Assembly (NCBI GenBank): GCA_022768545.1
Contig: JALELV010000047.1
Coordinates: 1 to 56,619, forward strand
Length of the DNA: 56,619 bases
Reading direction: 5' to 3'
From: Oscillospiraceae bacterium
GTDB lineage: Bacteria > Bacillota > Clostridia > Oscillospirales > Ruminococcaceae
Shown here: piece after piece, positions 20,580-24,221 of the stretch
How positions within the stretch are numbered: position 1 is the first letter of the stretch
How the letters are laid out: every line of letters begins with the position of its first letter
Notes under the pieces: model-generated
The model's database searches: none
The model's input: only the letters and a program-made list of their open reading frames with translations
What the model was told of the DNA's origin: nothing
Translations under genes and position numbers: made by a program

Positions 20580-20990
20580 TTAACCGCCCCGCCGGGGGTG
20601 CTTTGGGGGGCTGGAAGAGGAAGAGCGGTGTTTCTCCGGGCGGGCGAACAGCTCCCGCAGCCCCAAAGCCAGCAGCAAAAGGGCAAACGACCGGGCCAGC
20701 AGTGTCTCGTCCATGGAGCGGGCCAGCCAAAAGCCTGCCGCCGTGCCCAGGATGCCGAACCCTCCGCAGAAAAGGGCGGCTTTATAATCGATGAGCTTTG
20801 CCCTGGCGTGAAAAAACACGGCCACGGCGGCCACCGGCAGAAAAAACACCAGGTTCATGCCCTGGGCGGTCATCTGCGCCACCCCTGCGAAGGCAGTGAG
20901 GTATAAAAGCAGCACCGCCCCTCCGCCAATGCCCAGGGCCCCGGCGGCCGCGGCCAGAAAAGCGACGGTAAAGTCAAGCATCCACTGCAT
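20580..20990 (-). CDS. TauE/SafE-type membrane protein, half-length (second of pair)
   Basis: 136 residues, about four membrane segments, with the glycine-rich loop AAAAGALGIGGGAVLLL typical of each half of TauE/SafE sulfite/organosulfur exporters. A full-length family member has about 250 residues and two such halves. This gene starts 14 bases after the companion gene at 21005-21352, with GGGAGGAGC ahead of the ATG. The two products probably assemble together. The C-terminus is a Ser/Pro-rich tail. Confidence 0.78.
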   Translation of the reverse strand: MQWMLDFTVAFLAAAAGALGIGGGAVLLLYLTAFAGVAQMTAQGMNLVFFLPVAAVAVFFHARAKLIDYKAALFCGGFGILGTAAGFWLARSMDETLLARSFALLLLALGLRELFARPEKHRSSSSSPPKHPRRGG

Positions 20991-21004
20991 GCAAAAGCTC
21001 CTCC

Positions 21005-21352
21005 CTACCCCCGTGCAAGCAGGCGAACGGCGGCGTACAGAATAAATACGGCAAAAACCTTGCGCAGCCAGAAATCCGGGATCCTGCGCAGAAAAAGCGC
21101 CCCGGAGGCGGCTCCGGCCAGCCCGCCGGGCAGGTAGCGCAGGCACTGGGAAAAGTCGATATAAGAGCGGTAAAAAAAGACGCTGAGGCAGGAAAGCGCC
21201 AGAATGATCAGCACGGAGGTGGCATGGGCGCCCTTAGCAGATAGCCCAAGCTTTTTTAAAAACGCAACGGCGACGATCCCTCCGCCGGAACCGAACAGAC
21301 CGTTGAGCAGCCCCATGGCAAGCCCCGCTGCCCCATAGATGAGGTACTGCAT
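21005..21352 (-). CDS. TauE/SafE-type membrane protein, half-length (first of pair)
   Basis: 115 residues, about four membrane segments, with GLLNGLFGSGGGIVAVAFL, the family's N-terminal repeat loop, and LKKLGLSAKGAHATS. It corresponds to one half of a standard exporter and is followed by the other half. AGGAGGAGGAC precedes its ATG. Substrate unknown; sulfur compounds are typical of the family. Confidence 0.8.
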   Translation of the reverse strand: MQYLIYGAAGLAMGLLNGLFGSGGGIVAVAFLKKLGLSAKGAHATSVLIILALSCLSVFFYRSYIDFSQCLRYLPGGLAGAASGALFLRRIPDFWLRKVFAVFILYAAVRLLARG

Positions 21353-21954
21353 TTGGCCGTCCTCCTCCTTCTTTGCAAAATAAAAGGCCTCCGGGTTAGT
21401 ATAACCCGAAAGGACTGCGTTTTGCCGGGAAAGAGCGCAAAATGCGCGGCTGTTTTTTGGGGGGCCAGCCGGCCAGGGGACATTTAAACTTTCCGCCGTC
21501 GGGGCACGAGGGGCAATACACCGCTCCGGGGCCTTTGCCGGCGCTGGCTGTGTTTGGGACCGGGCCTTGCCGGTACCGGTTTATTCTCCCGGACAGACTC
21601 ATGGGTTTTTGAGGGAGGAAATGAGCGGCCGGATGCAGGGGCAACGGTGCCGGATACTGGTTTTGCCATCAAAAGCTGTGCCGGCCCTTATGCGCCGACG
21701 GCGCTGCGGAGCAATAAAAAAAGCCCCGCCCTGCCGGCGTCATGGCGCCTAAAACCCATCTTATCGACAGGGTGGGTAAAGCTGCCCGCCGGGTTTGCGC
21801 TCCCTTCTTCCGGCACAGGGCCGGGAGGTCTGCGGTCCGCCGACGGAGACAGGATCCCTTTTAGAACGTGTTGGATTTCAATATACCATGACAATCGAAC
21901 AGGGCAGGGTGGCGGAAAACCGCCTGTGCCATATTTTATTTAAGTTCGCTGAGT
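21353..21954. other. Gene-poor stretch
   Basis: About 600 bases between the TauE pair and DUF1292. Open frames exist on both strands but none has a good ribosome site or recognisable motif. A minus-strand TATACT near 21398-21403 could be the -10 for the TauE pair. Otherwise I see nothing. Confidence 0.4.
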
Positions 21955-22251
21955 TCAGTCGACAAAGTCAAACTCGTCGGACAGGTTTTCCATAAAAATC
22001 CCGGACACTTCGTTAAACTCGTCCTCGTCCTCGATCGGCTCCAGATACTGATCTTCCCCTTCCCCGGCCGCCCGAAGGACCACAAGCTCGCCGTCGTCCT
22101 CCGACAGGTTTTCCTCGTCGATCACAGGGATCATGGCAAAATAGGTATGTCCGTTCTTATCCAACTGATCCAGTATCTCAAACTGATATTCCTCGCCGTC
22201 ATCGCCGGACAGGGTAATGATATCCGGGCCAAACTCCATCTTTTCGTCCAT
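21955..22251 (-). CDS. DUF1292 family protein
   Basis: 98 residues, very acidic. The core ITLSGDDGEEYQFEILDQLDKNGHTYFAMIPV matches DUF1292, a small beta-sheet protein widespread in Bacillota, of unknown function and usually near yrrK/ruvX in other genomes. That context is absent here. Start at 22251 has an AGAGAGG site. Confidence 0.85.
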   Translation of the reverse strand: MDEKMEFGPDIITLSGDDGEEYQFEILDQLDKNGHTYFAMIPVIDEENLSEDDGELVVLRAAGEGEDQYLEPIEDEDEFNEVSGIFMENLSDEFDFVD

Positions 22252-22435
22252 TGCCGCAGCCTCTCTTTCCGCGCGGAGCACCCGCCGCGCCGCTGTATTA
22301 GCATACCCGGCGAGGCAATAATCATACGCCGTTCTGCTTCCGTTATCATCTTATCGAATAATGGGAAAGAAGTCAATGGATGAAAAAAATTAACCTATTA
22401 TTCATAAAATAGCATATGTTTGTTGGTAAAAACTG

Positions 22436-22464
22436 TTGACAATACCCAAAAACCGTGTTATATT
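22436..22464 (+). promoter_or_regulatory. Strong promoter of the candidate large RNA
   Basis: TTGACA (22436-22441) and TATATT (22459-22464) are 17 bases apart in an AT-rich stretch. No gene start with a ribosome site follows for more than 600 bases. Confidence 0.82.
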
Positions 22465-22470
22465 AAAGAC

Positions 22471-23175
22471 ACAGAAAAGATGATGAAAAAAGAACAGCAT
22501 CTGAAGGAAAGGTGGCGATTCCCATGTACTCGGAAGAAACTCCGCACTGCTTTTCTTGCCGCGTGGTCCATGTGGAATGCGCGACGAGGCTGACCGACAG
22601 TTAAGCTCGTAATTTTCAGGAGCCGCAGAGTAAAAAAGATACCTGGCTCAAAACAACGGCAAGTGTGCCGGGCGAAGCGAAACTGGATCAGAGGTCAGTG
22701 AAGATAACCGGAGACAGCGAAAACGGATTGGATTTTGCAGGAGGCATTTGTTGCAGCGGCCGCAGGGGCCAGAGGGTTCCGGCAGCCAGAAAAGGCAAAA
22801 AGCTTAAAGCGCAGGGAAAAAGCCAGAGGGCTTTCTGAGCAGGAAAGCAAAGGCCCGAAAGGCAGACCGCAGAAGACAGAGGCTTCCAGTTACAGGCTGT
22901 TTTGCGTTCCTCTTGACGAGAAAGAGAGGAAAGAAAACCACGATCGTTTGTATCGGCAAAGCTGTGGGCTCCGTGGGGAGCAGCCAGAGCAAAAGCTGTA
23001 ACGAAAAGTGCAAGCGAAAGGTGAGTCCAATGAATTAAGCAAAGCTCCATTCTACAGGGTATGAACTCTAAAAAGAAATAATAGAAGACGCGAGTTGGCC
23101 TATTGTTTTAGGAGAATTAACCTGTAAAAAAATTAAATAAAGAGCCGCGATGTGGTTTGCATCGCGGCTTTTGGT
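22471..23175 (+). ncRNA. Candidate large structured non-coding RNA
   Basis: The unit runs from a near-consensus promoter to an intrinsic terminator, about 700 bases. It is purine-rich and lacks a credible gene: the only sizeable open frame (22735-23001, TTG start) has no proper ribosome site and a biased Lys/Glu/Arg composition. Short helices are visible throughout, for example CGGCA/TGCCG at 22659-22672, GCTTTC/GAAAGC at 22829-22846, CCTCTT/AAGAGAGG near 22910-22930 and GGCTCC/GGAGC near 22967-22983, many with GA-rich loops. Size and style fit the ornate large bacterial RNAs (OLE, ROOL, GOLLD classes), but I cannot assign it to any. RNase P, tmRNA, SRP and 6S signatures are absent. Confidence 0.6.
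23143..23175 (+). terminator. Terminator of the candidate large RNA
   Basis: A perfect 10-bp stem AGCCGCGATG/CATCGCGGCT (23143-23152 and 23160-23169) followed by a T-rich tail. From here to 23353 I see no further feature. Confidence 0.82.
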
Positions 23176-23353: not shown

Positions 23354-24221
23354 TTAAAGCTCCGGGGCATCGGGCGGAAGCGCCTGGACCCGCCGCAGAA
23401 AAGCGATGACCCGCCGCTCCTCCTCTTCCGGATAGCAAAAGCCCAGGGCAGAAGCTGTTTCCCTTCCGGCCCGGCCAAACAGCGCGGCAGAACAAAACAG
23501 GGCGCGCCAGATATCCTCGGCGGCGTAAGAGCAACCTGTCTCCATCAGCAGCTGCCACTCCTCCGGGGGGAGATAGCGGCGCAGATGTTTTCCCATCTTG
23601 CCGGTGCTCACGGAAAAGCCGGTGAGCGCCCCGGCGCGCCAGGAGAGCATCTGCAGCAGAGCGGGATGCAGTACCTGGTCCAAGTGCCCTTTGGCGTAGG
23701 TGTGCTCGTCCCGCCACAGGCCTTTGGCCACATAGGGTGCCACCCAGAGAAACTCGTTGCAGCAGTCTGCAAAGTGGGAAGGTTCCGGGCGTCTGACGTG
23801 GTAGCTCCGGTCGCTGGCGGGCGGCAGGGAAGAGAGCAGGCCGTCCTTGTCCAGCAGTGCCACCGAGAGGCTGTCCCCGGGGTAACGGAAAAACTCATCG
23901 GCGGGGAAAAGGGTCAGGTCGATGCGGTTGCCGTCCTCAAACTGCATGAGACAGGTAAAACGCCCGTCGCCGATGGGGGAGTAAAAGCTCATGGCCTCCG
24001 GCGTCTGCATGATGACGCGGGAGCCGAAACGGTCCACCCAGCGAGGCGTGCGGAGAAAAGGCTCTATTGACCGCACCAGAAAAAGAATATCGTAAGTCCT
24101 GAAACAGGTCTCTTTTGGCGCCGGGGTCGGCGCGGGAACCGCCCAGCGCCACAGCCCGCACCCGGTCATCCTCCCGGGCGGCGGAGAGGATGAGCTCCAT
24201 CATTTCCGATTCGCTTCGCAA
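23354..24221 (-). pseudogene. Aminoglycoside 6-adenylyltransferase (ANT(6)-like), frameshifted
   Basis: Streptomycin-modifying nucleotidyltransferase family. The reading frame starts at TTG (24221, after AAAGGAGGAATC) with RSESEMMELILSAAREDDRVRAV, followed by GGSRADP, the nucleotidyltransferase GS motif. One extra base in the TT of GACTTACGAT (24094-24095) then shifts the frame; the rest continues as YDILFLV, FGSRVIMQTPE and LMQFEDGNRIDLTL to 23354. Joined, the product is about 288 residues, normal for the family. Its start overlaps the upstream membrane protein by 56 bases. Inactive if the shift is real. Confidence 0.85.

Follow-up and report, generated by a model that had tools for sequence, protein, structure and literature searches.

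Structured stand-alone RNAs with a short open reading frame and start-stop minigenes form a candidate RNA class in the Oscillospirales, often beside the 6S RNA gene

The DNA analyzed here (the window) is a stretch of 56,619 nucleotides from the draft genome of an Oscillospiraceae bacterium (GCA_022768545.1, contig JALELV010000047.1; 2.1 Mb, 89% complete, hereafter G000). It holds a transcription unit that gives an RNA length of about 700 nt between promoter and terminator hairpin, and the neighbors examined are a divergent DUF1292 gene, a convergent gene of the streptomycin-adenylyltransferase family and a TauE/SafE permease gene (Table 1). The 6S RNA gene is on the strand of DUF1292, beyond it as seen from the unit. 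The permease gene (20580-21352, minus strand) is split into two overlapping open reading frames (ORFs) in different frames, indicating a frameshift or an assembly error. The near-consensus promoter reported in the initial annotation stands, with a TG ahead of the -10 element, and the promoters of relatives match the consensus at 10-12 of 12 bases at the equivalent position. The purine-rich bias reported for the body is also confirmed, with a purine fraction of 0.62 against a window mean of 0.53 (sd 0.03), and the GA-looped hairpins are present (15 of 38 short hairpins, a count without a chance control). The terminator was called clean, which is too generous: the GC-rich hairpin exists and its plus-strand tail reads TTTTGGTTT, and a simple scan scored it on the minus strand only; the plus-strand terminator is conserved in a relative of the same genus, G001. 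The gene that follows the terminator in the window is convergent, and the downstream genes of relatives differ between genomes. Because these genes vary, we rejected the idea that the unit serves a downstream gene as its leader or riboswitch.

Table 1. Features of the RNA unit and its surroundings in the window.
Feature	Position	Strand	Remarks
6S RNA gene	21719-21913	-	RF00013, 44.1 bits (gathering threshold 46.4), E 1.9e-7
DUF1292 gene, divergent neighbor	21955-22281	-	PF06949, E 7e-17; arrangement shared in families f1 and f24
Sigma-A-type promoter TTGACA-17-TATATT, extended -10	22436-22464	+	11 of 12 consensus matches
Structured stand-alone RNA bearing a short ORF and a start-stop minigene	22471-23175	+	Ortholog in G001; folding z -3.7; no Rfam family
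Ribosome-binding site GGAAAGGTGGCGATTCCC of the short ORF	22506-22523	+	18 of 18 bases identical in G001
26-codon ORF MYSEETPHCFSCRVVHVECATRLTDS, stop TAA	22524-22604	+	Length and frame kept in G001
Ribosome-binding motif GAAAGGTGAGTCCA of the minigene	23016-23029	+	Class motif
Dipeptide minigene ATG-AAT-TAA (Met-Asn-stop)	23030-23038	+	ATG-GAA-TAA in G001; class-wide statistics
Possible decayed third site AGGAGAATTAACCTGTAA (speculative)	23110-23127	+	Strongly conserved in G001; no ATG
Terminator hairpin	23143-23175 (hairpin 23143-23169)	+	10-bp GC-rich stem; kept in G001
Streptomycin-adenylyltransferase family protein, convergent with the RNA	23354-24169	-	PF04439, E 6e-85

The ortholog of the unit in G001 is found at the equivalent place. 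Conservation between the two genomes is concentrated in one block of about 200 nt and another of about 160 nt, both at about 80% identity, and the middle of the RNA is divergent and gapped. The strongest block, AGGAAAGGTGGCGATTCCCATGTACTCGGA, with one base differing in the context of its 5' edge, is a ribosome-binding site (RBS) followed by ATG, and opens an ORF of 26 codons in both genomes with an identical stop position (pS 0.48, pN 0.21; pN/pS 0.44). The calculated duplex of this RBS with the 16S tail has an energy of -15.9 kcal/mol, a value obtained, like the other duplex energies given here, with a generic tail because the 16S end is absent from the G000 assembly. Within the 3' block, the strongest start-like stretch, GAAAGGTGAGTCCAATG, precedes AAT-TAA in G000 and GAA-TAA in G001: the minigene reads Met-Asn-stop in the former and Met-Glu-stop in the latter, its second codon having changed and its stop having been retained. 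The motif GGTGAGTCC occurs seven times in G000, no more than expected by chance; only in this RNA is it followed by NATG. No Pfam domain was found within the unit, long ORFs of both strands included. The initial annotation had seen no credible gene here and implied a purely non-coding RNA; neither claim is supported, as the two most conserved blocks hold RBSs with ORFs of 26 and two codons, both of which are kept in the ortholog, and ORFs of both types recur across the order, where members of the class are marked by their short ORF and by their start-stop mini-cistrons, whose in-frame signals are strong.

To survey the order we searched 394 of its genomes with AGGTGAGTCCNATG and obtained 76 matches, spread over 57 genomes; the reversed-pattern control had one. 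Some of these are ordinary gene starts, and many lie inside intergenic units of 0.3-1.4 kb with strong promoters and terminators; homologous units with both signals occur in many genera, and GTGAGTCC is present in 12 of 17 genera. In the window's own family (f1) and in f24, where we used an anchor search on DUF1292, the units are divergent from this gene, and among the genomes whose loci were read, all 12 of f1 and nine of 11 of f24 contain the unit; the two f24 genomes without it (L189, L190) have both DUF1292 and 6S RNA. The 6S gene lies beside DUF1292 in many relatives, and was detected in 14 of the 17 DUF1292-unit loci read and in four others. Families f13, f14 and f20 have similar units at other genomic places, with no 6S RNA within the up to 4 kb of surrounding sequence that was read. 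Outside the order, the minigene pattern GTGAGTCCNATGTACT had no match in a 274-genome sample of the class. Of the matches read from a scan of the genome collection with an 18-base 5' pattern, the same-genus ortholog (L039) was the sole recognizable relative, a further match (L048) being judged a coincidence within a phage-type coding region; in viral contigs the 5' block had no exact match, and three exact matches to a 17-base 3' block were judged to be chance. A 21-base pattern at three mismatches was swamped by apparently ordinary gene starts. On this sequence evidence, an unrecognized family of long stand-alone RNAs adjoins the 6S gene in many gut-type Clostridia. Gene finders miss such loci because the ORFs are too short, and RNA finders because the loci are treated as non-coding and the middle diverges fast.

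A typical unit carries one short ORF of 15-30 codons (for example MYSEETPHCFS..., MYQEEPHSVAS..., MDSEQTARYHAGFSIVR, MGQEEISQLNRISLSGCC, MVTEETSYRFAGLAATL and MYSDEPVQNLGCGVRGENAADRKAVSQR), and most units also carry one to several start-stop ORFs. Minigenes reading Met-Tyr-stop are found in about ten genera and Met-Gly-Arg-stop in f13 and f20; others use Arg, Thr, Lys, Glu, Gln, Ile, Cys or Asn. All three of TAA, TAG and TGA are used and codon 2 is variable, which argues that the start-stop arrangement is conserved and not its letters. In 27 RNAs we counted 65 RBS-ATG sites, compared with 6.7 ± 2.6 in dinucleotide shuffles and two on the reverse strand. The lengths of the ORFs that follow are bimodal, with 40 of 1-3 codons and 22 of 15-30, and the stop triplets after the ATG fall at offset 3 in 27 cases and at offset 6 in 11, compared with 2-6 at out-of-frame offsets. 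The RBS pattern that led to some of these RNAs ends at the ATG. The DUF1292-only set, no member of which was found by motif, has 17 RBS-ATG sites against 2.05 expected and none on the reverse strand, with ORF lengths of two codons (seven times), 5, 5 and 15-24. Across the 118 distinct RBS-pattern contexts in all loci read, 52 ORFs have three codons or fewer and 22 have 15-30; the 17 of more than 60 codons are ordinary genes. We infer from these signals that the short ORFs and minigenes are translated.

Several observations count against engagement by ribosomes. Only a single clear minigene is present in the window RNA, and under a strict rule G410 and G456, both members of the family, have none; the predicted openness of RBS sites is no greater than average; some motif copies are followed by AAG or by no start; and constraint on the longer peptides, which drift, is weak (pooled pN/pS 0.61). 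At seven loci of f1 and f24 (L123-L126, L134, L135, L147) the RNAs contain copies of GTGAGTCC or similar sequences without ATG, some with AAG in its stead, such as GTGAGTCCACCGGTTAC.

The window RNA folds better than its dinucleotide shuffles (z = -3.7), and consensus folds of same-genus alignments beat column-shuffled alignments with z of -3.9 to -9.0, values that are generous because column shuffles do not keep dinucleotides. Compensatory pairs are in clear excess in genus g216 (22 against 7.9 ± 2.8 in shuffled alignments) and in modest excess between G000 and G001 (18 against 10.9 ± 3.2), with no excess over shuffles in genus g88. Together with the unit's own promoter and terminator and its homologs in many genera, the consensus folds uphold the initial description of a large, structured and separately transcribed RNA. 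The class resembles OLE, ROOL and GOLLD in this respect, these being large, structured, stand-alone bacterial RNAs (PMC12286853). Membership in these classes, which the initial annotation had considered, is not supported by their covariance models, nor is membership of HEARO or raiA by theirs: none of these models matches the unit at gathering or at E≤10, or the loci of relatives at gathering or at E≤0.001-0.01. We know of no start-stop cistrons described in OLE, ROOL or GOLLD. In Rfam 15 as a whole, no family matches the unit at gathering, and the matches at E≤10 are at chance level. The suggestion that the RNA could belong to a new class has held best, and our search of the open-access literature found no description of such RNAs. 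A CsrB/CsrC-type sponge was rejected because the 89% complete genome has no match to CsrA (PF02599).

The folding of the RNA would also be expected of a large RNA of the OLE, ROOL or GOLLD style with a purely structural role, in which GGTGAGTCC-N-ATG would be a structural or protein-binding element that happens to resemble a start. The fixed spacing between motif and ATG, the conserved sequence of the spacer and the motif copies without ATG are consistent with this. Against it stand the in-frame stops, the free choice among the three stop codons, a variable codon 2 and bimodal lengths, and start-stop ORFs are also preceded by other RBS versions (AGGAG, GGTGTTACC, GAAAGGTCC); we regard a purely structural RNA as unlikely. 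We hold a similarly low opinion of the possibility that the unit is the mRNA of a small protein, with the peptide of 15-30 residues as its product and the remainder an untranslated region with stabilizing minigenes. While the ORF frame and length are kept in most closely related groups, the acidic N-terminus M-x-x-E recurs in many genera and pN/pS is about 0.3-0.6 in most informative pairs, the peptides diverge rapidly and would need as little as a tenth of the RNA's length, minigenes are found repeatedly with no gene behind them, and in some f14 members a minigene comes first and no longer ORF with a matching RBS is seen. Finally, the motifs could act as decoys that base-pair with the 16S rRNA 3' end of 30S subunits with no need of translation. 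A decoy would fit the energies of -8 to -17 kcal/mol calculated for duplexes with the generic 16S tail, and also the motif copies without ATG; it leaves the in-frame stops and the short ORF unexplained, and we think it improbable.

The best reading of these sequences is that the unit belongs to an unrecognized, order-restricted class of stand-alone, ribosome-engaged RNAs. We give about even chances to its being a structured regulatory RNA that ribosomes engage at minimal cistrons. We propose that a strong constitutive-type promoter would produce a folded RNA of 0.3-1.4 kb with no main protein gene, on which ribosomes would load at two kinds of site, a 5' short ORF of about 15-30 codons and one to several start-stop cistrons with 1-3 codons each, there to initiate and to terminate almost at once. 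Occupancy by ribosomes would then control the fold or lifetime of the RNA, or would tie up initiating ribosomes if the RNA is abundant. It is very unlikely that two-codon ORFs encode a working product; with this and the drift of the longer peptides, the most economical interpretation is that what counts is for ribosomes to initiate and terminate on the RNA. Less certainly, the pattern suggests that these two events, and not the peptide, are selected. As there is no main gene, engagement by ribosomes would control the RNA itself or hold ribosomes.

Two-codon minigenes have been described in the mRNA leaders of axe-txe (mg2), LEE1 ler and ycbK, and a six-codon mini-ORF in LEE4; in these it is translation or ribosome occupancy that acts and not the product, for instance where ribosomes shield the RNA from nucleases (PMC8708949). 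The class described here shares with them an SD, an ATG, very few codons and a stop, including the two-codon form. In contrast to leader minigenes, which precede a protein gene in cis, it has no main ORF downstream on its folded, stand-alone transcript, and often has several minigenes per RNA; in the window a terminator and then a convergent gene follow, and in relatives the downstream genes vary. Start-stop ORFs are also found in the bar minigenes of phage lambda, which occupy ribosomes and cause peptidyl-tRNA drop-off; bar is a phage element and not a conserved chromosomal RNA class. RNAIII, a dual-function RNA, is also folded and regulatory, is about 0.5 kb long and contains an ORF of about 26 codons; unlike RNAIII, the class described here has additional minigenes, a poorly conserved peptide and no known target pairing. 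Minigenes have so far been regarded as leader elements of rare occurrence or as devices of phages. If our reading is true, a conserved stand-alone RNA built on minigenes would represent a novel type of regulatory RNA, found across common gut-type bacteria, and "translation without a product" would become directly testable as a regulatory principle.

A growth-state role for the class is hinted at, by analogy, by the neighboring 6S RNA, which sequesters RNA polymerase. The two RNAs differ in sequence and structure, and the likeness lies in the genomic neighborhood and would extend to the notion of a decoy RNA for a core machine. It is conceivable, though we put it forward as a doubtful extension, that initiation and termination at start-stop cistrons are the function of the class, making it a counterpart of 6S RNA for ribosomes that senses or buffers translation capacity.

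One locus (L274, reverse complement; G190:C1 near 438960) has tandem-duplicated units of 120 nt with two minigenes each (MNC-stop and MC-stop), followed by MNS-stop and then an 11-codon ORF. In G381, of family f17, AGGTAAGGTGAGTCCGATGTACGTGGCAAC is found with a 47-codon ORF on several contigs (L129, L130, L131; four pattern matches), and these copies are perhaps a mobile element that uses the same start.
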